Positions 9,173-62,852 of a stretch of DNA of 64,000 bases are shown one piece after another (positions within the stretch are counted from its first letter, which is position 1; the number at the start of each line of letters is the position of its first letter). The stretch comes from Rhododendron vialii. Its lineage: Eukaryota > Streptophyta > Magnoliopsida > Ericales > Ericaceae. The stretch is taken from contig NC_080569.1 of NCBI RefSeq assembly GCF_030253575.1, positions 21,450,001 to 21,514,000 of the forward strand, written 5' to 3'. The notes beneath the pieces are model-generated. The model had not been told where the DNA came from. It did no database searches and was given only the letters and a program-made list of their open reading frames with translations. A program made the translations under genes and the position numbers.

Positions 9173-9977
9173 GATCCGGGGGCTCTGCTGTCCAGAGGGG
9201 GCAGTAGCCCCAACCCACACTCGGGTAAACTGCTGGAGAGGAATAGAACGGCAACGTTATAGTGGGGAAAAAATTCCTTACCTCCTTCTTGCAATCCTAT
9301 GAAGCAGAAACGTGATTATGAGAGCTTTAAAGACAAAATTTGATTATGTCTCTTTAGAATAATATGATCAAAATAATAAGATCTTCACACCCGTTTAAAG
9401 CAGTGCAAAGATCTTATAATTCTTATCATATTATTCTAAATGATCATAATTAATTTTTGTGTATATTCCTCTCACAATCACATTTCTACTCCACAGGATC
9501 CTAAATAAAGAGCATATACTTAATATGAGAGTCATAAAAATAAAAAATTAAATTACAATCCTTTAGAATTATATGATCAGAATAACAAGATCTTTACACC
9601 GATTTAAATGGAATGAAAATTTGAACACTTAATTTTTTTACACTGTTTATATATTAAAAAATATAGTTAAAAAAATTAAGTACTTCAATTTTTAATCCGT
9701 TTGAACGGATGTGAAGATCTTATTATTTTGATCATATTATTCTAAAGAGACATAATCAAATTTTATCTTTAAAGCTCTCGTAATCACGTTTCTGCTTCAT
9801 AGGATTGCAAACAGAAAGTAATAAATTTTTTTGCCACCAAAACGTTTCCGTTCTGTCACTGTCACTGTTCTGTCACTGTCACTGCCACTGCTTCAGCAGT
9901 TTACTCTCAAAACGATGTTCATTTTGAGAGTGTGGGTTGGGGCTGCTGCCCCCTCTGGGCAGCAGAGCCCCCGGATC
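9173..9977. mobile_element. Mutator-like foldback element (non-autonomous MULE)
   Basis: The ends are GATCCGGGGGCTCTGCTG and its inverse CAGCAGAGCCCCCGGATC. An exact 11-bp duplication, CGTGAACGGGA, flanks it (9162-9172 and 9978-9988). A 9-11 bp TSD with long terminal inverted repeats fits the Mutator superfamily. A second, inner inverted pair (9297-9405 with 9705-9803) contains GAAGCAGAAACGTGATTATG and its complement, so the whole 805 bp can fold back on itself. No transposase is encoded. Confidence 0.8.

Positions 9978-11081: not shown

Positions 11082-11134
<53 letters not shown>
11082..11134 (+). repeat. (CT)n microsatellite in a 5' UTR
   Basis: An uninterrupted CT dinucleotide run of about 50 bp lies between the TATA box and the ATG of the MGNC-protein gene. 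CT runs in plant leaders are common and can act as core promoter elements. Confidence 0.9.
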
Positions 11135-11135
<1 letters not shown>

Positions 11136-20931: not shown

Positions 20932-21445
20932 AAAAAAACCTCAAAATCCCCCCCCCCCTAAAGTTTCCTATCGAATTTTGATGATTCGAGCCGCTCAATA
21001 TAATCAGGATGTGATTTTAAAGGTATCCGCGAGAAATCAGCAAAAAAAATGACCGGAAAGAGCTTCATCCAAACAGTTTTTATTGAACATTATTAAACGG
21101 TTCAATAAAAAACTGCTTAAATCGAGCTCTTTTCGGTTATTTTTTTTAATAAAATGCGGGCCTCCCATTTTTCGATCGTATTTCGATGATCCGAGCCGCT
21201 CAATGTGTTCAGAATGTGATTTTAAGAGTACACGCGAGAAATCAGCAAAAAAAAAGACTGGGAAGGGCTTGATCCGAGCAGTTTTTGTTTTTTTTTATTG
21301 AACGGTTCAAATAAAAACTGCTCGAACGAAGCTCTTCCCGGTATTTTTTTTTGTTAATTTCTCGCAGTTACCCTCAAAAATCACGTTCTGAACATATTGA
21401 GCGGCTCGGATAATCGAAATTAGATCGGGAAATAGGAGAAATGAG
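20932..21445. repeat. Direct and inverted repeat cluster
   Basis: Blocks with ATGATTCGAGCCGCTCAAT and GCGAGAAATCAGCAAAAAAA occur in direct order at 20960-21055 and 21165-21255. The inverse set (ATTGAGCGGCTCGGATAATC, and AATTTCTCGC) is at 21350-21420. GTTTTTATTGAAC and its inverse lie in between. The cluster looks like nested or rearranged MITEs. Confidence 0.6.
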
Positions 21446-22282: not shown

Positions 22283-25200
22283 TCAAATTGGTGATGGAAG
22301 GATCTTCCCCGAGCAGGTCCCAAACCCAACATTGTAGCCATTGCCCTGCAGGCGAATTCAGACATCAACTATCAGTCCACGAAAACAAATAAAATCTGTG
22401 AAACCAAAACTATTTGAGAACATACAGTCGCACATAAAATGATTACAGTGGATGCACTTGTCTAAGAAATGGTAAGACCTTAACAACCCAATTGCAAATA
22501 TCCGAAGAACTGCCAAGAACTTATGTATTTAAGGTATCTAAATACCTAAAACTGGACTTCAAAGTACGAATTAACCCAAGAACCAAGAACAAAGAATAAC
22601 GCTCATTTAAATGCATCATGTTTGCATCTTTACTACTAATACTAATACCTTACAACTACAGCACACAGATTTACAGAAACTTCATGCCAGAGCGTACGAC
22701 CTATTACCCTTCCAGAACTTTCCTCAAAACAAACAAATACAGACTACATCATATGATCTAGATTGCAGAATCTTGGAACAAAGATGCTTAAATAGATGCA
22801 TGGCTTCCTCGAGTAGAAAAACTAAGTATTGCTGCAATTTGCTAAATAGAATAGAAGAGTGGAAATGTTGTTGGATAATAACCAACCTTGCTGCAACCAG
22901 TAATAACAACTTCATCTCCATCTTCTAGAAATTTACGAGTTGTTCCACCTAAAGACAGCTGTTTTTGTCCATTCCATGTTAATTCCAACAAGCATCCATA
23001 AGATTCTGGTTCCTGTTGGGAAATGAAACAGAAGCCCCACTTAAAGAAGAACAAATAATGCATCTCATTCGCAGGAGGATCTAGAACTTAAGCACCATGC
23101 GCTGATGAAATCATATACAAACCAAAGTTGAGAAAGCTTACAGGTCCGCTAATTGTCCCAGTCCCAAGGAGATCACCAGGCCTCAAGTTGCAACCGTTGA
23201 TGGTATGATGAGCAAGTTGTTGAGTCACTGTCCAATATCTATGGCATGAACACAAAAAAATCAACCAGCAAATTAAAATATGGCCTGTATTTTAGGAGCC
23301 GAGATTTGTTTTCATTCAAATCATCTCAATTCAGCAGTTGATGGTGGAAGTGTGAATGTACCAATATGGAAACGTATACAAATCTACTGAAAGTTTGAAC
23401 AGTTACTTTAAACAGTAAAAGAGTTGAAAGTATCATCATCAGTGACTATTGATAATCAAAAAGTTAAATTTTGTTTACCACCAAATAAATATGTCACACA
23501 GTTTAAGATTCTTGGACAGGTGAAATCCCACATCCCCATGAGCTAATTTTGGTCAAAGCATCAGCGTTAGTCAATTATCTTTCCCCACTTGAGACCAAAA
23601 AAATGTTAATGCAAGCAGCTCTTGCTAACTAAATGAAACTCTATTATTGATAATCAGAATTGGGGAGGAATTTGCATGATAAAGTGGATTCTGTTATTGA
23701 TAATCAGAATTGGATGAGGCCTAGGTCCAGAAACTCTATTACAAGGGAAATTATTCATCATACTCCTGCTTCACTTAGGCCTACCATAACTGAAGAGGAT
23801 ACTGTCAGGTGGAATTTGACTGCTAACGGGAAATTTTCAATCAAATCTGCTTGGAATGCAATTAGAAGGCAACTTCCTGAAGTAAGATGGGCCAAGGCAG
23901 TTTGGTTCAAGAATGGGGTGCCTAGATGGGCTATTATTCAGTGGATGACTGTGTTAGGCAGGTTATCAACCTTGGATAGGCTTCATAAGTGGGGGATTGT
24001 CCTAGATTCACAGTGTTTTTTTATGCAAAGCTGCTGTGGAGACTCATGAACACTTGTTCTTCCAGTGCTCATTCTCCTCTATGATCTGGCAAAATGTTCT
24101 GCACAAAAACAGGTCCCTTTGCCCTGCTCAAGAGTTAATCCCTATCATTGATTGGTTAATTCAACATAACCCTAAATCTCAATTTGAATGCCTGGTTTTT
24201 AAGCTCTCTCTAGCTGCAGTTTTGTACCACGTCTGGAGTGAAAGAAATAGCAGAATTTTTCGCCACCACTTGAGCAGTGAGCAGCAAGTGGAAACCAAAA
24301 TCATCACTGATGTCAGAGCATGTGTTAGTTCATGGGGGGGAGTTAAGAAATCTGATTGGAATCTGGTCCTAGCCTCTGCATGGAACTTTCCTGGTGAATT
24401 TTTGATAAGCCTTGATTCTTGTATGGTTGTCCATGTGCCTTATTGATTTTCATTTCTGATTGGCTCTAGGCAGGTTGTATACCTGAGCTAAATTCGAAAT
24501 GTTTGATTGTACTCAGTTTTCAGTTGATTGTATTGTTCCTGGGGAATGCCCCTGTGCTTGTGTAATGGGTTTTGTCGATAAAATTTTAACTTACCCAAAA
24601 AATAAAAATTAATAATTGCAAATCGGAGAAGGCAAAACCCTTACAGGTGCTTGAAGTTACTCTTTGTGACAACATGGGAATTTTCTTCTCCAGTAGGTTT
24701 AATCCGAACCTTGCATCAAGAAGTCAGATTGATCATCACAAGGATGCTATAACAATTCATTAAGAAAGCACAATAATTTGACTATCATTTGGTTTAGAAG
24801 AAAAAATCAATGGGGCCCAAGACATAATTGTGGCAGATTATTGTCCCAACAATAACAAGAAAAAACTTTTCAAATCCCTGCGTATAATAGACAGATGGCC
24901 AATGAAATGTGAGACAAACTATAAATGCAAGTACACAGCAGTGAAATAATACCTCCAAAGAAATGTCGTAGTTCTTTGATATCTTTTCAGCAAGATATGG
25001 CAATGGTTGAGGGTCCTGCAATTAACAGCATGCATGAATTCAGCACGTCAGATTTGAGAATTTTTCAAAAAAAAAAAAAGGCAAACAACAGAATACATGG
25101 TTTTCGGAAGCATAATTGAGAAAACCAACGGTTTCTAGAAATAATATAAGCTACCTGTTTGGGAGCATCACAGGCAAAAGGTTCGAGAGCATCTAAGGTC

Positions 25201-28200
25201 ACAATCCAAGGGGATACTGTTGTACCTGAAAAAACTCAAGACAGCAACTATGATCCGGACGCTGTAACCGAGAGGCTAGAGGATAAAAGATCTCACGCTA
25301 GAAATGAGATGCTTGGTTCACTGGAAGGGGAGAAATGGGAGCATGTGATTATGTCACACACCAAGGCAATGCTTGGTTCACTGGAATGAATGCTGCAATG
25401 GAATGGTCATTTTGATACTCCCTCCATAGTCCATCCCCATTTGTTGGTCTCAGCACTTTTTGCTATCCCAAAGAGATTGTCCCACTTCAAAATTAAATGG
25501 GTACTACTATTGAATAAATTTCCTCTTTCACACTTTCTTTTTTAAATAATTACTAAGAAAGTAAGAAAAGGTAATGATTGGAGGGTAAAAGTAAAAGTGG
25601 AAAATAAAATGATAAGAAATGTAGTGATTGTGTCCTCTTATTAAGTCGGAATCCCCAAAAGGGACCAACAAATGGGGACGGAGGGGGGAGTTGTTTTGCT
25701 GAAAAGTAGAAGACTTCCACTGCAAATGGAATCCTCATTCCAATTTTCGTCAGTGCTCAATTCTTTAGGAGGCAAGGAACGCTGATTCCATTCCTTTCCA
25801 AAAATCAAATCATTTCAACAAACCAAACACTGCCTAATTGCTGTTTATTCACTGATATGTAGCCTTTAATAACAGAAAACTCTACTTCCAGTGCAATAAA
25901 CACTTTTAATTTCTTACCGAAACTCTTCCCAAGAAATGGCCCAAGAGGCACATATTCCCATGCCTGAATATCTCTAGCTGTCAAACAAGTTCTAATTAAC
26001 ATGTCGTCCAAAATTACAACCAATAAGGAATGTGGTAACGAACCAGAGAGTTTCATGCATACCACTCCAGTCATTCATCAACACAAGCCCAAAGATATGA
26101 TCTGCAGCCTTATTTACATCTATAGGCTTTCCGAGTTCGTTCCCAGGACCAACTATAGCAGCCTAGAAGCAATACAATGGACAAACAATAGGTGAATACG
26201 CTGGGAAAAAAAGCTAACATGAAGGCAATTCCTTAGCCATAATAAACTAACATACAAGATAGAACAACTATTGAAGTCAACTTTCAGATTAAGTTAGAAT
26301 GAATGTGGCAAAAGCTAACCATTTCTAGCTCAAAGTCCAGCTTCACTGAAGGACCAAAATATGGAGAACCGCCATGTGGATGGCCCTGACCTCTGTGGTA
26401 GAAACAAACAGTATAAGCATGGAAAAAAATCCCATGATTTTATGACATAATAACAATATTGGACCCGAGTATGAAGAAATTTTTAATCATGACCCTTGTT
26501 GTTCTATATTGTACTCCCTCTGTCCCACTTTGTTTCGCCTGTTTCCTTTTTGGGACGTCTCAAAAAATTGTTTATATCTCACAATCTATAATATTTTATA
26601 TATCCAATATGGATCTTGGATCTTGTTTGATAGATCTCAATTTATTTTTTTAAACAAAGTTTTCGAAATCATAAATAACATTTTAGATTGTGAGATATAG
26701 ATAATTTTTTTGGACGTCCCAAAAAAGAAACAGGCGCAACAAAGTGGGACGGAGGGAGTAGCAACTATTCATGAGGACATGAAATTGCTGCACATTAACA
26801 GCAGCTCAATTTGGATGGCGAAAATCTTAAGAGGTAATGAGAATCTTGTTTACAGTTCCAATGATTCCCATCTTCAGAATGGAGATGGGAAAATAATCCC
26901 TTATCAGCAACTCAAGTTGGATTCATATCACTTTGACATGTCAGCTACACGGGAAATGTTGAAGGTTGCACAAATTACTCAAGGATCAAGAACTAGAAAA
27001 TTTCCAACGCAAGTCTCACTACATTATTGTAAGAAGACCAACCAAACTACTTTAAAACCATCACCATGGCTCCCATATCGCAGCAATCCCGATCAGTAGT
27101 GTTTCTAGTGTACACTTGAAGAATTATCAAAGATCGCAGTCATAAATTTTAAGGCAGTTTTAATTATGCTCCAAATGAGTAATATAAGATATCAAATGTT
27201 ACAGTTTCCAAAAATGCAAACTGAGACAGTTGAGCAAAGCTTCCACTGGGTTGGCCATACCTCTGCTATTGTTTTTTGGATGTCAACAATTTTGCAGTCA
27301 AATGCATTTACTCTTAAATCAAAGGGTCTCTGAGGAAGTACTTATCATTCAGCTCCACATGACATGCTGTAATTGAAGATGTAAAATGCTTCCAGGGAAG
27401 TTATCTCACCTTGGTCTCACAATGTCAGTTCCAGAAATAACAACGGATGATGCTCGTCCATGATATGCAATAGGAATATGGAACCTGAAAATTTATTGAA
27501 AGTTATGAATATGGAAAAGGAAAAAAAAAATGTTCATAATGAAAGAAAGACCAAGAACATATTTTCTCTGTTTTCCAAAATTCCCCCTGAATAGCGTGTA
27601 CATGACATGAACTCCAATATCAGCATACCAATTTGCTGGAATTGGATTCTCCGGTCCACGGAATATGGTCCCACAATTCTTTGCATGATGCATCGATGAG
27701 AAAAAATCGGTGTAGTCCCCTATTGCAATAGGAAGGAGCATTTCTACCTGGCCCTGAAGCATAGAGCACAACACAACAATTAGAATGGCAAGCAAATACT
27801 GCTAAACTACATATTCAGGACCCTCCCTATATCTTACCACAGGAGCAAGTGCAATCTGCCTCAAACTTGCATTGTCACGTAATTTTGGTTCAGTAGCTGC
27901 ATTGAAGAACGGTAGGGTTGTTAATTTGCAATGAATTTCATTTAAAATTAAGCTCCCAACTTTCAGATACAAACTACTATGCCTAGGTATGCAATTTCCC
28001 TGCCCCAACTTAAGGATCATAGTAATATTTCAAATCCACGGTAGTCTACTGCAGTTGTGAAAGAACAACTGCTAATAAAACTAATTGACAGAAAATTTTA
28101 GCATTACAGGCTACTTTTGCAATGATAGAAAGCCAGAATAAAAACCAAAAAATGATAAGTATGAGAAGTAGCATACATGACAGAAGATTTTGGATTGCTG

Positions 28201-29795
28201 CACGAGCTTCCTTCCATGCAGGGCGTCCCATAGCCAAGAACTTGTTCAGATTAGGCTGGCACCAGGACATGACAAATAGCGCAATAAACAAGTTAGAGAA
28301 TGGATATAAACATGCTTATATGGACTTCATTAGCTTCTTCATTCAAAAAGGCAGGAGAAAGACGGCAACATAAAGTGTGACCATAAACCTCAGGGGGGGG
28401 ACGTCAAGAGGCCTAAGGTGCATGTCCGGACGAAAGCCTGGTTTGCCCAGGCTGACGTCTAGCTCAAGAGGCTGGCAGGGTTCTCAGTCCCACATTGTTT
28501 GGGAACCCAAAGTTGGTTAGTATATCAGAAATACCCATCTGCTACCTGGCAGCCTGAGTTTACCTTTAGGCCGAATTTTGTGGCCCCATTGACCAGATTG
28601 ACTAGGGCAGTAGGTGCGTAAGCGGTTACATTTAAGGCATTCAAAGAAGGCTAAACCAATTATCAGTGATACGAACCAGGAAGGTAGCGAGCCATAGGAC
28701 TATGTTAGATATAAATGTACAAGAATGTGCATAGTCTAGCAGATAGGATAGGAGGTACTACTTCCATATCCTACATTTACTTTTAGGCTGTGTTTGGATA
28801 GATGGATTTCAAATGTATCATGATTAAGCTACCAAACCCATTATTGGACCCATACGTATGATACCAAATTTAAGTTTTTGAACTTTTCTAATTAAAGAAT
28901 AACTATAAACCCCGTCATTCAAAATCCACTGAAGATAGGTACACTACTTTTTTACACTATATATTTCGTGGGGCTCATTTTGGGTCTCATAAAAATCCAA
29001 AAAAATACCAATAAATTTTAAAATATTGTTTTATGAGGTCCTGTGAAAAAAATTAGTTCCAACGAATACAACGAATATCGGTAAGTATTACTTCTGGATT
29101 CGTATGGGTGAAACTGCTCAACTGCGCAGTTTCGCCACTACGAATCTAGAAATAATACTTACCGATATCCGTTGAAGCTGATTTCCGTTGAAGCTTTACA
29201 AAGCCCCATAAAATATTGAGTGACGTGCAGTGTAACTATGTAGTATACGTAGCATCTCTATTTAAAATCCCCACATATGCAAACGGAGCCTTAATTTATA
29301 GATGATTCAAGCATTTGAGTTTCCATTTTCCCTTTTTTAAAGTGAGATTCTGTAGAAGCTTCAAATTAATTGCGCAAGTGTAATCCAGTTTCACGCTTCC
29401 CAAAACCATCCAAAGCGTATAAAATATACGAACACTAAACCATATACAACACGAAACTATCCTCAATACTTCCAACAATTTCTCAGCAAACAAAATGAAA
29501 CTGATCAAATTAAAACCCAACAATCAAAACCCTGCAACTATAAATCTCCTCCAATTTAGCAATGAAACAGAGTTTTCAAAAAAAGACCCACCTGGTTGAA
29601 ACAATCGGAGCCCTTGAGGATCGGCCCATCGAACGTTCCGTGGGCAGCGATCACGGAGAGGTCCAACACGTATTCCCCGATCGCCACGCCAGGCCTGGGT
29701 TCGGAACCGGGTTGGGGCCTGAACACGCCATAGGGAAGGTTCTGAATTGGGAAGTGAGAGTCCGGGTGTACTTCAACGAACGACTTCAGACCCAT
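22283..29795 (-). CDS. FAH: Fumarylacetoacetase (FAH), 14 exons, 419 aa
   Basis: It hydrolyses fumarylacetoacetate to fumarate and acetoacetate, the last step of tyrosine breakdown. Exons (high to low): 29795-29592, 28255-28177, 27896-27838, 27753-27629, 27484-27410, 26392-26320, 26162-26063, 25977-25918, 25225-25155, 25015-24953, 24709-24645, 23238-23142, 23012-22887, 22345-22283. All junctions are GT..AG and in phase. Residues equivalent to the mammalian active site are present: D130, H137, E202, E204, D236, R240, K256 and E367, all shifted by three or four from mouse numbering. The protein starts [19 protein letters not shown] and ends SGKILPSPI. Loss of this enzyme in Arabidopsis (SSCD1) causes short-day cell death. 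Introns hold a LINE fragment and several MITEs. The gene looks intact. Confidence 0.93.
23640..24605 (+). mobile_element. LINE (L1-type) 3' fragment in FAH intron 11
   Basis: It lies antisense to FAH, between exons 11 and 12. Translations show the C-terminal zf-RVT part of plant L1 ORF2: [22 protein letters not shown] at 23800-23870, then [17 protein letters not shown] at 24037-24090 and [18 protein letters not shown] at 24234-24290. The two main frames are offset near 24035. The 3' end runs into CCCAAAAAATAAAAATTAA at about 24595. The reverse transcriptase and endonuclease are absent, so it is 5'-truncated and inactive. TTATTGATAATCAGAATTGG is duplicated at 23643 and 23695. Confidence 0.8.
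25418..25690. mobile_element. Stowaway-like MITE in FAH intron 8
   Basis: The left end is CTCCCTCCATAGTCCATCCC and the right end GGGGACGGAGGGGGGAG, with CATTTGTTGGTC inverted inside. The left flank has the expected TA at 25416-25417, but the right flank is TT, so the TSD has decayed. Confidence 0.7.
26514..26758. mobile_element. Stowaway MITE in FAH intron 5
   Basis: The ends are CTCCCTCTGTCCCACTTTGT and the near-perfect inverse ACAAAGTGGGACGGAGGGAG, with TA on both sides (26512-26513, 26759-26760). The inner arms also pair (CCTTTTTGGGACGTC with GACGTCCCAAAAAAG), giving a 245-bp hairpin. This is a typical Tc1/mariner-derived MITE. Confidence 0.9.
28391..28640 (+). other. GC-richer insert with an snRNA-promoter-like pair of boxes (FAH intron 1)
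   Basis: GTCCCACATTG at 28487-28497 resembles the plant snRNA upstream element (RTCCCACATCG). A TATATCA box starts 23 bp later at 28521, a spacing like plant Pol III snRNA promoters. The downstream sequence does not match U1-U6, U3 or 7SL as I know them. The same CCCACATTG string is also common in plant LTRs and TRIMs, so a retroelement relic is equally likely. Confidence 0.3.
28786..29290. mobile_element. Tourist-like (PIF/Harbinger) MITE in FAH intron 1
   Basis: The ends are GGCTGTGTTTGGATAG and inverse TGCAAACGGAGCC, flanked by TTA (28783-28785 and 29291-29293). An inner palindrome at 29060-29190 pairs CGGTAAGTATTACTTCTGGA with its complement. The 3-bp TTA duplication fits PIF/Harbinger. 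Confidence 0.75.
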
Positions 29796-29860
29796 AATTG
29801 CAAAAAGAGTCGTGTGACTGGCACTTTAGAAATAGCTACTACGGACGGCGAAGGCGAAAC

Positions 29861-32755: not shown

Positions 32756-32806
<51 letters not shown>
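32756..32806. repeat. (GA)n microsatellite
   Basis: This is a continuous AG dinucleotide run of about 50 bp. Confidence 0.9.
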
Positions 32807-32809
<3 letters not shown>

Positions 32810-33464
32810 TTCCAGCAAAATAACTAAATTTTTGGTTAAATAAAACAACCGAACCCAACCGGTACAGTTACAAAACCAAACCGATTTTTTTCTCCGTTTT
32901 TTATTTCACCCCTAAGAGCAACTCCAATGGAGATGTACAGTACATCCGGATGAATAGTTGTTTTAGATGAAAAAAATCGTTAAAAGTTAGTTGGATGTAA
33001 ATTAGAAATGAATATTTAACTAATTTTTCCTCCATCTTATTTTCCCCCAACTTTCTCAACCCTAATTCAAGTACTATTTCCATTAAAAATTAATTATGGT
33101 ATCCGGTAATCGAGGACTTAAAAACAAAATTAATTTCGCATTTTTTTTTACTTCCGTCCAAAAATAGCTTCAATTTTGACACCAACTCCCATCCATTTCA
33201 ACTACACCATTTAGTCCATCAACTCTCAACCACATCATTTACTTTAGCCATATACTCTCAACTCTCATCCAATCTCAAATGCATCATTTACTTCAGTCAT
33301 TTACTCATATCCACTCTTAACTACACCATTTACTTTAGTCATGTACTCGCATCCACTCTCAACTACACCATTTACTTAAACCATCTATATATAGACATAT
33401 CCTCCCCATTATCCATTCTCACACTCAAATCTATATTCAACCTTCTCTTTAAAAAAGAATCATC

Positions 33465-33772
33465 ATGAGCAATTTAACCCAAAGAATATTACTAGGAGAA
33501 TTTGACAGATCTTCCTCCAATGACGAGGAGATTGCAATGGCGCAACTGATTATGGCAGGCAGTACCGAAAAATGCAAAGAAAACGCCAACAAGGAGGTCA
33601 TGTTGGTTCTACAAGCGGTCGAGCTTGTATCCCCTGTGACAGAGTTGCTACCGACCAACGAATCAATGCTGATTACTTTTATAAGTATTCACTCTATGAC
33701 GAAAAGCTGTTTCGCCAACATTTTCGAATGAGTCGACCCTTATTTCACAAGATCTTGGGTCAACTCCAGTAA
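33465..33772 (+). pseudogene. Harbinger transposase N-terminal part, left arm
   Basis: It starts MSNLTQRILLGEFDRSSSND and continues, after a frame change near 33590, as GRACIPCDRVATDQRINADY and then LYDEKLFRQHFRMSRPLFHK, the N-terminal region of ALP1-like/Harbinger transposases. A stop follows ILGQLQ at 33770-33772. Further homologous sequence (SGIQKMTAGLRMMAYG) follows in another frame up to about 33915. Confidence 0.75.
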
Positions 33773-33924
33773 CATAACATGACGTTCGTCCAAATGAATG
33801 ATGCAATGCGCTGCAGGTCTTTCTGGCATCCAAAAGATGACAGCAGGTTTGAGGATGATGGCATACGGGACGCCTGTTGATAGTCTTGATGCATATCTCA
33901 AGATAGGAGAAAGTACAACAGTTG

Positions 33925-34610
33925 ACTTGGCATGCCAAATCCACAAATCATACGATGCAACTGCTTCAAGTATGAGAGTGGGTTTTCCAATGCGCCTACT
34001 GAAGAAGCCATGGTAAGTAGTTGGACATTTGTCCCACTGCCAGTGCATACAATCCAAACTGCCTAGCATTCTAGGAAAACCACGTTAGTTGCCCACATGT
34101 GCAGTATTTGCTTCATTTGGTTTTCTCAAGTATTCTGCTTTGAAAAGAGTCAACTGTTGTACTTTACCCAATTTTAAGATACTCATGACTATCAGCAAGC
34201 ATCTCGTATGCCATCATTCTTAGAGCTGTCGTCATCTTTTGGATGCCAGAAAGACCTAGAGCTCCCGTTGCATCATTCCTTTGGACGTACGTCACGTCAT
34301 GTTGCTGGAGTTGACCCAAGATCTTGTGAAATAAGGGTCGACTCATTCGAAAACGTTGGCGAAACAACTTTTCGTCATAGAGCGGATACTTAGAAAAGTA
34401 ATCAGCATTGATTCATTGGTCGGCAACAACTCTGTCACGGGGGATCCAAGCTCGACCGCTTGTAGAACCAACATGACCTTCTTGGCATCTTCTTTGCATT
34501 TTTCGGTACGAGTACGGCCATGATCAATTGCACCATTGTAATCTCCTCGTCATCGGAGGAAGATCTGTCAAATTTTCCCAGTAATATTTTTTGAATTAAA
34601 TTGTTCATGA
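33925..34610 (-). pseudogene. Harbinger transposase, right arm with partial DDE domain
   Basis: On the minus strand the right arm carries the N-terminal region, then MFRQRFRMSRPLFHK and LSGIQKMTTALRMMAYEMLA (34367-34164). Lower down comes MLGSLDCMHWQWDKCP...EAVASYDLWIWHA (34069-33925). The Asp of SLDCMHW corresponds to the first catalytic Asp of DDE_Tnp_4. The remaining catalytic part is absent where the inverted left arm begins. The gene is broken. Confidence 0.75.
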
Positions 34611-35719
34611 TGAATTTTTTTTAAAAGAGAATACTGTATATAGATTTGAGTGTAAGAATGGATAATGGGAAGATAAGTCCATATATAGATGGCTTCAAGT
34701 AAGTGGTGTAGTTGAGAGTGGATGTAAGTAAATGATTGAAGTAAATAATGTAGTTGAGAGTTGATATGAGTAAATGACCAAAGTAAATTGTGTATTTGAG
34801 AGTGGATGAAAGTTGAAAGTAAATGGCTAAAGTAAATGATGTTGAGAATTGATGGGAGTAAATGGATGAAGTAAAATAGTGTAGTTAAAGTGGATGAGAG
34901 TTGATGTCCAAATTGCTTCTATTTTTTGATGGAAGTAAAAAAAAAAATGCAAAATTAATTTTTTTTTAAAGTCCTCGATTACCCGATACCATAATTATTT
35001 TTTAACGAAAGTAGTACTTAAATTAGAGTTGAAAAAAGTTGGGGGAAAATAAGATGGAGGAAAAACTAGTTAATTATCTATCCCTATTTTACATTTCACC
35101 ATTGGAGAGGGATGGGTTCTATTTTACATCCTACTAACTTTTAACCACTTTTTTCATCTAAAATAACTATCCATCCGGATGTATTTTACATCTCCATTGG
35201 AGTTGCTCTAAGGGATTTGGGACATCAGGCCTGATTCACAATCCGACCACTCATTTTATAAGGCTCCAAATTAATTGAGTATTGATAGCAACATAAGGAA
35301 GACATCCATTTATTTAAAATCCATTTATCATTAGATGTAGCTACCAATATTTGAACAACTTGAATTTTCAGATGGGCATAAAACCTCAGACCTGGGACTC
35401 TACAACCCAATAATAGTGCTTTGGGGCAGGGTTCCCGGATCCAGTGGGTAGCTTGATGCCCAACTATGCATCACTTAGACTAAGATAACAATATCGTCCG
35501 TTCTAGTGATTTCAAAAACAGGGAAAAGAGCAAAGAGAATGTATAAGGTAAACTGGATAGTAAGCATAATGCCAGAGAGTTTAGTAGTTGTCCATGCAAG
35601 ATCGGAAATACAAAATGCTAACCCGGTACTTGTCTTTTATTTTGTCTTTGAAAGGAAGACGCAAAAATAGATAATATAGTTTCAATAGTGCTAAGCATCC
35701 ACAGGCATCTGATTCTGAT

Positions 35720-39576
<3,857 letters not shown>

Positions 39577-39917: not shown

Positions 39918-39969
<52 letters not shown>

Positions 39970-43170: not shown

Positions 43171-43233
<63 letters not shown>

Positions 43234-45275: not shown

Positions 45276-46440
45276 TTGGACAAGTGCCCATTTAAGCACG
45301 TGGGACCAAGTCATGGGTTCTCACAATCTCTCAAAGAGTCACTGGTAAGGACTGTGTTCAATAGTAGGGATGCTGAACAAATCCTCTGCTTGCCTTTGAG
45401 CATGACTGATAAATCAGACAAGCGACCTTGGAGGGGTACAGTAAATGGGAAGTTCTCGGTCAAGTCAGCGCATGTGCTAGCATAACAGTTGGGGCATCAC
45501 ACTTTAAACCGCAGTGGGGATCGTGGACAAACCAGTGGAAGCAGTAGTGATGAAGATAAGTGGAAAAGGATATGGCAAATCCAAGCTCCTAACAAACTCA
45601 AGCTTTTTCTGTGGCGTAGTTTGCACAATATTCTACCTGTCAACAAGATGCTAGCCCAATGGAAAGTGCCTGTGGCGTTGGCTTGTCCAGTTTGTGGAGT
45701 AGTCGATGAAACCACAACTCATGTACTTATGGGCTGTGAACGTTCTAGCAAAGTGTGGTTACTCTCACCATTTCGTTTGAGACCGGAGACCTTATCTACT
45801 AGTACTTTTTTGTTTTTGATCATACCTTATCTCCGTACTTAGAGCATCCGCAATGGTACTAATCAAAATCAATAATCAAAATGTGTCACGTCAGCATTTG
45901 ATTATTCATTTAGTCCATAATCAAATTTAACAACATCTACCTCCATATTGATTATTTTTTAATCTCTAACAAAAAAAAACCCCACAATACACAATGCACA
46001 TTCGTCCAATCGCAACGAGTTTTAATCACGTACCCGACCACATCAAATTATTCGTCACGATGAGACGATTCCAATATGAGGTATTTTTAAGTTATTGAGT
46101 TTTGAATTTAATTGTTGAGTTTGATTATTGAGTTTTTGTTATTGGTAAAAATTGTTAAGTTTGGTTATGGAATGGGTGGAATTTGGTTATTTACTAAAAG
46201 ACTTGTAACTTTGGTTATTACAATGTGGGGTGTTTTTTGAGTATTGTTGTTAAATTTATTTATTCACATCCATTTGCTTATCCATTTGCTTATTACAATG
46301 TGAAATGCTCTTAGTCTGGGGAAGTTTGGACGAACCTGGGATCTAATACTAATGGTGTCCATAGAAGAGAGCTACTGGGTCTCTTTGCTTTTAATATTGA
46401 ACAGTACGAAAAGTTTGACGATGGGAGCTAGATCCGTCCG
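45276..46440 (+). mobile_element. LINE (L1-type) zf-RVT fragment split by a MITE
   Basis: Frames read PWRGTVNGKFSVKSAH, WKRIWQIQAPNKLKLFLWRS and CPVCGVVDETTTHVLMGCER, the zf-RVT C-terminus of plant L1 ORF2. A stop at 45483-45485 interrupts it after SAHVLA. At 45842 a Tourist MITE enters. After it, 46314-46430 (GTCTGGGGAAGTTTGGACGA...) may be the continuation. There is no reverse transcriptase core, so the fragment is inactive. Confidence 0.75.
45842..46310. mobile_element. Tourist-like MITE inside the LINE fragment
   Basis: The ends are GAGCATCCGCAATGG and the inverse-type AATGTGAAATGCTC, flanked by TTA (45839-45841, 46311-46313). This fits a PIF/Harbinger MITE of 469 bp. Confidence 0.75.
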
Positions 46441-59578: not shown

Positions 59579-62026
59579 CTGATCTCCGCAGAAGCTCTCT
59601 CTCTCTCTCTAGAAGTGCGCCCACGGAGAGAGAGAGAAGAATACAAGTAATGTATGGGGGAAAGCAAACACGCTCCTTTACTTTTGGGTACTAGTGGAGC
59701 GGAGTAGTATAGTCGCATTTATTCCGCCGAGGGTGGTCTCTTTCCAAGCTCTTCCTAGTTTGCCTTGCTTGAGAAACGTTCAACAGGGACTGACTGTGAT
59801 TTGCAATTTTTAAGTTTAAAAATAATATTTTATAAAAATAATTTTTTAATTTTTATTCATCATTTAAAATCAAACAAAATTCATATTATATTTTTTAGAT
59901 TTTAGTAAGCTTATTATTTTTTATTTTGAAAATTTATTTGAAAATAAGTATTTATTGGATGTTCTAGAATAGGCTTGTTCATTTTTTAACTCTGACTTAT
60001 TTAAAAGTGTAGTATTTGTTTTATATTTTTACTAACTAATAAGTTGTAGATCATAATTTTTGATTTTGTCCTTATTCAAATTTTTTTCGCATTTGTTAGT
60101 TTTGTACCAAACTTTTATGCACTATTTGTTTGTCTTGATGAAAGAAATTGCAAACGTAAAAAATTATACTACTAACTTTTATACATATATTTTGAGAAAT
60201 ATACAAGGAAAAGCTCAGAAGGTTGATTTTTTGGGCTTTTTTTTAGATATTTTCAAAAGTACTAGTTTAAAAATCATAATTTTTTACTTTTTTGGTTCCT
60301 CTCGTCGAGACGAATCAATAATACATAAAAGTTTGGTGCAAAACTAACAAACAAACAAAAAATTGAATAAAGACAAAACTAAAAAATTATGGTTCACAAC
60401 TTGTCAGTTAGTGTAAACACCCACTAAAAAGATCAAAAGCTGAAGTATAAAACCCACCTTTTTTTCCCCTTGTGTTCTGAATTAAAGGAACAATTCTTGA
60501 AAGTTGAAGGATAAATCTTGAAAAGTTAAAGATCATCATTCTCTTAAAAAAAATTTATGTTGCAAGAAATGAATAAACAAATTGGAACAGATATTGAAGT
60601 ATATTGTAATAATGTTGTAACAATTTTGTGGGAGGGGTTTATCAGGCCATGCTATTTGTGTGTCAAATGAATATTTGACTAGAACTGGTGTCACTTGCGA
60701 TGTGTGTACCACATCAAACGTGATGGCTTTCCAATAAATTATCAAGTTTTCAAGCAAATTTTGAATTCTTTGCAGTCCACTTACGTGGATGGGACTATAC
60801 GATTTGAGCTTGTTGAGTTAAACGAAATCATTACTATCCATACATAATCACATTCACACATAATTCTACGAACTTACATACATGCATGTCTGAGTTTCAC
60901 ATTCGCTACATCACCAATGTATATAGAGTCGTGGATTAATTACCATGGGCGCGTGAATGGGATTGTATGGTTTGCGCCATGGGCTAAGGGCCCAGAGTTC
61001 GTTACCTTAGAGTCCCCAACAATCTCAAAAAGGGCCTAATTATTCTAGGAAAAATGACAGCTCATGACGTGTTTGGATAATTAATACACATCAAGAACAT
61101 GCTAAGAACATTTGTTAATATTGAAAATGTCCTTGGCGTGTATTAATTATCAAAACACGTCATTGGCCATCATTTTCCCATTATTTTAGTACCCAAGATA
61201 TAAGTCTAACAAAATTTCTTTTTTTATAACACTCGTGGACCCAAATTTACCCAAACAATCCATTTTAAACTTAAGGGTCACGGGCCGTACTTCTTCCCAA
61301 ATGAGAGGGGGGGAAAGTAAGTTGGGCTGAGGACTACAGTGAGGGCCTGTGATCAGATGTGGTGGACACATCATTTGAGTTTGGTGCATCATTTTTCATG
61401 GGAAAATGATAGGATTCATGAAAGGAAAACATAAAAGAATTTTGAACGGTTCAGATTCTTTCACGGAGAGTTTAATGTTTTTTTTTTTCATGTATTGTGT
61501 CATGCCTCTTTCTTTAAAAATTCGTGCTTTACAAACTCCCCTCTCCTTTTGTTTTAGACTATCAAGAAAGAGAGGGGAAGAACACGAGCCAAGAAAACAA
61601 AAAAACGAAAAAAACAAAGATGAACTAGAGATGAAGGGAGGGTAAAAACAAAAATAGAGATTAAGAGAGACAAGGTATTAACATGCTTTTGAAATCATGC
61701 AAGATTAGATCTTTTATGGGGGTTTTTCATCTTGAATACATGCATTTGTGCGTTTTTAAAAAGTTCAATTGTGCCTCCGAAATGTCAAAGTCCAATTTTC
61801 GATGTCCGTCTTAGGCTCTCAAAATGTTAGGGCCAATCTTGCATGAGCTTTGTGTACTGATGATCACCCACTGTGTACATATATTTATATGTGTGCACGC
61901 ATATTGATTTGATACTCGTAATCACATGATTTCTTGAATTTTGTCATTCAAAATCCACTGGATTTTTCGTACCAAACATGGAATTAGGTTCCGATTTCTC
62001 TTTGGGACTGATTATTTTATCAGAAA
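59579..62026. other. Intergenic stretch, AT-rich, with MITE remnants
   Basis: It starts with the GA-rich leader of the phytocyanin gene (59590-59635). A MITE-like AT-rich block spans about 59960-60425 (GTCCTTATTCAAATTTTTTT on the left, TTGAATAAAGACAAAACTAA on the right, inverted). Its right part matches 9035-9150. GAACATGCTAAGAACA and GTCCTTGGCGTGTATTAATTA at 61060-61160 mark another small inverted pair. There is no gene. Confidence 0.45.
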
Positions 62027-62028
62027 GT

Positions 62029-62852
62029 CTACTGGTACAGACAAAAAATCTGTACCAGTGGGTATAAATCCCTTTTTGGGTAGAGCTGGGCAACGGATAC
62101 GAGACACGATAACACGACACGAACCGGACACGAAGTTAGCGGGTTAGGGTTGAACATTTCTGACACGAAAATGACACGACTCGAGAACACGAATTCTAAA
62201 AGGGTTGGTTTCGGGTTAAACACGTGAGACACAAAATTGACACGATTAACACGGTTACTAATCTGTGTCACCCATTAACACAAACGTATATACATAATAT
62301 ATGGTATATCTGTAATTCTATATAGAGTTGGGCAACAGACACGATAACACGGCACGAACCGGACACGAAGTTAACGGGTTAGGGTTGAGCATTTCTGACA
62401 CGAAATACGAAAATGACACGACTCGAGAAACACGAATTCTAAATGGGTTGGGTTCGGGTTGGGTGATTTATGACACGAACCCGACTAACACGATACGAAC
62501 ACGACCCGACACGACCTATTACCCAGGTCTAATTTTGGGTCTAAAAAAAATGATCGGAGTCGCTCATTTTGTTTAAAATACTTTGCTTATGGTCCCTACA
62601 AAAAATAAGATTAATCCAATATCGGTAAGAGTATTTACGAAACATCCAAACTTTACTCTAGAATTCAATAGAGCAAAGTTTGGATGTTTCGTAAATACTT
62701 TTATCGATACCGGATTAAGCTTATTTTTTGTAGGGACCATAAGTAAAGTATTTTAAACAAAATGAGCGACTCCGATCATTTTTTTGGGACCCAAAATGGA
62801 ACAAAAAAGGAATTTGTACCCACTGGTACAGATTTTTTGTCTGTACCAGTAG
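62029..62852. mobile_element. Palindromic foldback element split by a hAT-like insert
   Basis: Each end is itself a hairpin: CTACTGGTACAGAC, an A/T loop, then a copy of GTACCAGT. After removing the nested insert (62081-62531), the rest pairs almost completely around a centre near 62660. For example AATGATCGGAGTCGCTCATT pairs with AATGAGCGACTCCGATCATT, and ACGAAACATCCAAACTTTAC pairs with its complement. No TSD or coding capacity was found. Confidence 0.75.
62081..62531. mobile_element. Nested hAT-like MITE, internally duplicated
   Basis: The ends are TAGAGCTGGGCAAC and the inverse-type ATTACCCAGGTCTA. The 8-bp flanks are TTTTTGGG (62073-62080) and ATTTTGGG (62532-62539), one mismatch. A second copy of the left part (TAGAGTTGGGCAACAGACAC, then CGGACACGAAGTTAACGGGT) starts at 62323, so the element is doubled inside. 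Confidence 0.75.

Follow-up and report, generated by a model that had tools for sequence, protein, structure and literature searches.

Mu killer (Muk), an inverted derivative of MuDR in maize, is a well-known spontaneous hairpin that initiates heritable transposon silencing. To our knowledge, there is little documentation of how frequently hairpins of this kind emerge in natural genomes and how long they last. Both TIRs of Muk come from the transposase-side end, and the locus has two partial copies of the transposase that terminate in an inverted duplication (PMC3440606). Muk has been described as a perfect 2.4-kb hairpin that yields 26-nt siRNAs (PMC2563033). In plants that silence MuDR, short antisense transcripts driven by a promoter inside the Muk locus are reported, and read-through sense Muk transcripts accompanied a failure to silence (PMC3440606). 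This contrast suggests that internal transcription may matter more than read-through.

Internally deleted members of PIF/Harbinger have been ascribed to abortive gap repair in a study of Medicago, whose section 7 describes inversions of internal regions but mentions no 5'-5' transposase palindrome (PMC2213677). Maize contains thousands of PIF-Harbinger elements, yet under half, with a miRNA-like structure, and hairpins as such are frequent among transposons (PMC10760457). A transcribed inverted duplicate whose halves diverge is one proposed route from a long hairpin to a miRNA-like locus (PMC10004981). Among the literature matches listed, no title or abstract opening concerns a PIF/Harbinger hairpin of the 5'-5' transposase type.

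The element described here lies in a 64,000-nucleotide window of the Rhododendron vialii genome, the whole stretch of DNA that was analysed. Like Mu killer it has two transposase-side ends, arms of about 1-1.3 kb each and a position near genes. Unlike Mu killer it belongs to PIF/Harbinger and not to Mutator, and its arms are 12% diverged instead of perfect, so that the hairpin looks old and not newly arisen. Furthermore, Mu killer silences by a known transcript and siRNAs, whereas for the present hairpin transcript, siRNAs and silencing are hypothetical. With PIF/Harbinger deletion derivatives and Tourist-like MITEs it shares a 3-bp TAA/TTA duplication and short TIRs, but ordinary derivatives have one 5' and one 3' end (as in the related loci L035 and L036), whereas the hairpin has two 5' ends and forms a kilobase palindrome. 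It also resembles the proposed origin of plant MIR and siRNA genes in being an inverted duplicate that is drifting apart, but here the founder is a transposase gene.

Architecture of the element

The PIF/Harbinger derivative spans 2,293 bp (32916-35208) with TAA on each side, and the TIR GAGCAACTCCAATGG is found at 32916 (+) and 35208 (-), 15 bp being exact and similarity running on inward (Table 1). It consists of two mutually inverted arms, 1,012 bp on the left and 1,061 bp on the right, each of which begins at the terminal repeat and contains the transposase start codon. The coding frames are disrupted in both arms alike, and the element lacks its 3' half, ORF1 and the greater part of the catalytic domain. 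A preliminary description had read this region as one set of terminal repeats and one TAA duplication enclosing two inverted arms of about 1 kb, each with the transposase N-terminal region, and had likened the layout to Mu killer. Sequence and alignment confirm these points, including the Mu-killer-like arrangement of two transposase-side ends around inverted partial transposase copies.

The degree of identity between the arms, which that description had left to be checked, was determined from a full-length alignment of the left arm with the reverse-complemented right arm. The two are identical at 884 of 1001 aligned positions (88.3%), or at 889 of 1007 when the alignment is extended six bases into the flanks, and they differ by 80 transitions and 37 transversions (Kimura distance 0.129) as well as by indels, among them stretches of 35 bp and 14 bp in the right arm that are absent from the left. 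Two non-overlapping local matches between the arms have E values of 0 and 6e-31, and the arm-arm similarity is far above chance. An assembly artefact was rejected on the 12% arm difference and the many indels, and an ordinary MITE palindrome on size, transposase content and the two 5'-type ends.

Table 1 Features of the inverted element and the adjacent gene end (positions in the window)
Feature	Position	Strand	Basis or remark
TAA, left target-site duplication	32913..32915	.	sequence
Left arm, transposase-side 5' end	32916..33927	+	TIR, leader with ~42-bp subrepeats, N-terminal coding region, frame broken
Left TIR, GAGCAACTCCAATGG	32916..32930	+	sequence
TATATATA, putative transposase TATA box, inward-facing	33386..33393	+	label inferred; also 5' of the ATG in L043 and L024
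Left-arm transposase start codon and first open stretch	33465..33731	+	alignment to intact L045 transposase
TG, extra bases at the inversion junction, within the palindrome TTGGCATGCCAA	33928..33929	.	
Spacer, continued right-arm transposase, first DDE residue region (Plant_tran PF04827)	33930..34147	-	
Right arm, inverted second copy of the transposase-side 5' end	34148..35208	-	
Right-arm transposase start codon	34606..34608	-	
TATATAT, putative right-arm TATA box, inward-facing	34681..34687	-	label inferred
Right TIR, likewise 5'-type	35194..35208	-	
TAA, right target-site duplication	35209..35211	.	sequence
HIT-domain gene, last exon and stop	35720..35785	-	PF01230 E 7.5e-12, two exon peptides joined by hand

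On the minus strand, the 220 nt in the centre (33928-34147) code for the beginning of a Plant_tran DDE domain (PF04827, E 1.2e-22). The preliminary description had regarded this segment as a short loop with a partial DDE; the partial DDE is present, but the segment is not a separate loop, as it continues the right arm. In single copies elsewhere in the genome the same 220 nt are the stretch of transposase that comes after the right-arm portion and is colinear with it, and the left arm terminates about 220 nt earlier than the right-arm copy, which places the turn at ~33927/33930. The extra TG at the turn, which sits inside a 12-bp palindrome, matches neither side in the aligned relatives.

Further copies of the inverted form were sought in the same genome (532.6 Mb, 13 contigs), the best 40 of 197, 45, 134 and 184 candidates being scored in the respective searches. 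A junction query (33848-34008) found a full match at its own locus only among the 40 of 45 candidates scored, and the remaining matches were halves that end at ~33927 or begin at ~33930. A scan of the 45 loci L001-L045 for self-inverted repeats of at least 200 bp, in which the flanks of L002-L030 were 1.5 kb, revealed no second inverted form, the positives L001, L027 and L028 all being the hairpin locus itself. Likewise, no inverted form of the family was detected in L054-L059 with a threshold of at least 100 bp; L059 has an unrelated 142-bp inverted pair outside the element. The scans thus covered L001-L045 and L054-L059, leaving out the short junction loci L046-L053. The preliminary description had called for a search for other copies of the inverted form, and none was found among the loci scanned and the 40 of 45 junction candidates. 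As far as searched, the hairpin is single-copy among the loci and candidates covered, and mobility of the inverted form is hypothetical.

Relatives, family position and age

The assignment to Harbinger made in the preliminary description is upheld by the partial PF04827 domain in the spacer, and other hallmarks of PIF/Harbinger agree with it. The 3-bp TAA/TTA duplication is present as TAA/TAA (the 5' flanks of 33 relatives comprise 16 TAA, 14 TTA and 3 other), and the 15-bp TIRs fall within the 14-25 bp typical of the short TIRs in this group. The second ORF (ORF1) is lacking, as the element stops before the ORF1-like region of L045, and this does not speak against membership because such a loss is expected in a non-autonomous derivative.

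L045, which occupies the same place as L054, encodes an intact 432-aa transposase (PF04827, E 6.1e-102; DDE_Tnp_4) and contains ORF1-like pieces with a NAM-associated domain (E 6.3e-15) and Myb-like matches under the Pfam cut-off. Full-length relatives are represented by L054 (4,144 bp, TAA/TAA), L055 (TGA/TGA) and L059 (TAA/TAA). L003, L004, L005, L006 and L008 are 99.85-100% identical across 1,359 bp, and L010, L011, L012 and L016 are 99.6-100% identical, the members of each group residing at different chromosomal places. These near-identical young copies indicate that the family was active recently, and the recent Harbinger copies whose presence the preliminary description had wished to see checked therefore exist. 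The two near-identical groups with at least one intact transposase point to a recent, perhaps ongoing, transposition burst. The arms of the hairpin are 84-86% identical to the young copies at aligned positions, or 78-80% by the figure of the search tool.

A tree of 41 rows was built from the two arms and 39 single copies; L001/L027/L028 and the duplicates L014, L020 and L003 were left out, and loci fetched after tree building are absent from it. The arms group with L035, L037, L036 and L039 (100/98), apart from the young copies, and within this group the arms form an inner set with L035 and L037 (99/98). All of these relatives are short, L035 and L036 being deleted elements of 603 and 973 bp, respectively, and the 5' terminus is missing from L037 and L039. 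The tree places the hairpin in an old subclade whose members are short and deleted. The left arm (LA) and the right arm (RA) are joined as sisters with a weak support of 89/21. Sites shared by LA and RA, by LA and a third copy and by RA and that copy number 5/5/7 with L037 and 4/2/2 with L035, a star-like pattern; the same counts with more distant relatives are 15/2/2 for L036, 22/4/3 for L038 and 13/4/2 for L039. The best long match of LA is RA (1028 versus 932 bits, best 40 of 134 candidates) and that of RA is LA (1088 versus 1032 bits, best 40 of 184 candidates). Together, the star-like counts, the tree and the mutual best matches suggest that the arms separated at about the time when the old subclade spread. 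The weak sister support and the star-like counts also mean that the arms could be two separate copies that were joined later, in which case the joining could be younger than the divergence of the arms.

The three codon positions contribute about equally to the differences between the arms (18/21/15), and likewise to the changes private to LA (10/7/8) and RA (8/13/7), with one unclear site left out. Changes common to both arms relative to the majority of six relatives amount to 7/1/7, and second positions thus account for 1 of 15 shared versus 20 of 53 private changes (Fisher p 0.026; small counts). Within the limits of these small counts, the pattern suggests that the arms diverged after the loss of transposase function, without coding constraint. 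At assumed substitution rates of 7e-9 and 2.5e-9 per site per year the arm distance translates into ~9 and ~26 million years. Provided that divergence took place in arms that already formed one unit, the hairpin long predates the recent burst; with a later joining its age may be lower.

Predicted hairpin and genomic surroundings

For an inner transcript of 1,291 nt the predicted folding energy is -839 kcal/mol, compared with -325 to -337 kcal/mol for five mononucleotide shuffles, and in the predicted fold 469 of 520 aligned arm positions pair with their own homologue. By this prediction a crossing transcript would still fold strongly into long dsRNA, in agreement with the preliminary description. 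Both arms contain an inward-pointing TATATAT box ~70 nt 5' of the start codon, a putative promoter element. In addition, the 3' end of a HIT-domain gene located ~510 bp to the right is directed at the element, and read-through from this gene into the element is possible.

On the other side, exons at 28046-28315 and 29556-29825 (-) encode a fumarylacetoacetase N-terminal domain (PF09298) and likely belong to a host gene with its 5' side toward the element, ~3 kb off. The window also contains long AG/CT microsatellites at 32758-32805 (~110 bp left of the element), 11083-11135, 39921-39966 and 43171-43230, and several short palindromes or inverted repeats that appear MITE-like and are 75-92% self-complementary at 62532-62797, 9245-9854, 21162-21438, 60031-60412, 26506-26768 and 29069-29174. 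Fragments with zf-RVT similarity (PF13966) at 23654-24446 (+) and 45486-45842 (+) are probably relics of non-LTR retrotransposons.

Origin and present state

The bases at the termini bear directly on how the inverted form arose. In the old subclade the 5' ends, where readable (L035, L036 and L038), start with GAGCAACTCC, and the 3' ends read GAGCATCCCC in the three of five copies in which they are readable (L035, L036 and L039). In the hairpin, GAGCAACTCC stands at either end, and the similarity of the arms extends well past the terminal repeat. Judged by these bases, both ends of the hairpin are the transposase-side 5' end and true termini. Two 5' ends are compatible either with the transposition of one 5'-5' unit or with a deletion that fused two opposed insertions. 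L036 is flanked by TAA on both sides and L035 by TAA and TAT. The TIRs of L035 and L036 are unlike each other within each element, and the young full-length copies L054, L055 and L059 have GAGCATCCCC at both ends.

The locus is probably an old inverted 5'-5' PIF/Harbinger derivative that now persists as a mostly decayed relic and would not act as a working family-wide killer. This estimate refers to the present state; the alternatives considered below mix function and origin, and their odds need not total one. A relic is the likeliest state because of the divergence of the arms and the recent burst of the family, and the hairpin may perhaps make weak siRNAs today. It is proposed that a donor was converted into a 5'-5' palindrome, with fold-back or template switching in the course of aborted gap repair as the most probable mechanism. 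The palindrome could then have been mobilised once, landing between the TAA copies, a single mobilisation being feasible because both ends are true transposase-side termini. Transcription from either of the inward putative promoters, or read-through from the HIT-domain gene, would generate an RNA that folds into an imperfectly paired hairpin with arms of up to ~1 kb. Dicer cleavage of this hairpin would yield siRNAs directing methylation of the element and of its nearest old relatives, and their action on the young subfamily would at best be partial.

The locus may instead never have been a single inverted transposon, having formed from two independent opposed insertions of one old subfamily followed by a deletion in which both 3' parts were lost. 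The exact 5' ends at both outer sides agree with such an origin, the distance between the arms is about the same as their distance to L035 and L037, and tandem or nested opposed insertions are described as a recognised route to transposon hairpins (PMC11624286). Going by the 33 flanks, ~41% of such pairs should agree in their outer trinucleotide, and the shared TAA therefore does not decide whether a single unit moved. The preliminary description had reasoned from the outer target-site duplication that the inverted form itself seemed to have moved; the TAA copies do lie at the outer ends, but the step from there to movement is a weak one for the same reason. However, two insertions require that two members of a small subclade came to lie close together and opposed, each arm is best matched by the other among the candidates scored, and LA with RA is the favoured, if weak, pairing in the tree. 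An origin of this kind is possible but rather unlikely.

A working silencer comparable to Mu killer, transcribed now and diced into siRNAs that restrain the Harbinger family in trans, is distinctly unlikely. The architecture is that of Mu killer, recent and apparently autonomous family members are available as targets, and inward TATA-like boxes in both arms as well as a gene end directed at the element could provide transcription. Windows of 21 nt with at most two mismatches number 395 of 992 in the left arm and 536 of 1259 in the right arm plus spacer for L054 (40-43%), and 349 of 992 and 532 of 1259 for L059 (35-42%), with 0 or 1 in shuffled arms, so that partial action in trans on the young copies is possible as far as sequence goes. 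However, exact 21-mers in common with the young L045 amount to only 43 of 992 in the left arm and 93 of 1259 in the right arm plus spacer. The longest perfect duplex measures 49 bp and there are seven runs of at least 21 bp, in contrast to the perfect 2.4-kb hairpin RNA described for Muk (PMC2563033). The near-perfect hairpin, identical to the active element, that characterises Mu killer is thus not found here, the arms being 88.3% identical to each other and 84-86% identical to the young copies. In addition, the young groups (99.6-100% identical) have multiplied lately, and, provided that the arms diverged in place, this multiplication postdates the hairpin. The suggestion in the preliminary description that such a locus silences its family is not supported by these figures: the arms differ by 12% from each other and by 14-16% from the recently multiplied young copies, with few exact 21-mers, even though about 40% of windows match with at most two mismatches.

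An inverted duplication in place, within an element already inserted at the locus, would account for the single copy and the retained TAA duplication, but it is very unlikely. An internal inversion in place should leave a 3'-type terminus, and from a source with unlike termini such as L035 or L036 the right end would read GAGCATCCCC, whereas it reads GAGCAACTCC. This disfavours the other option in the preliminary description, namely that the inverted form arose after insertion. The argument does not apply to a source with 5'-type bases at both termini, from which an inversion in place would be possible, and matching termini do occur in three young full-length copies. Least likely of all is that the hairpin is a long-lived, naturally fixed analogue of Mu killer whose siRNAs once shut down the old subfamily so that only short, deleted members were left, the young subfamily having escaped by diverging in most windows too far for siRNAs to recognise it.

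Significance

The architecture of Mu killer, judged from a close structural match, is found here in another superfamily of transposons. The occurrence of this hairpin and of young full-length kin in one genome would make the locus a concrete and cheap test case for hairpin-triggered silencing.
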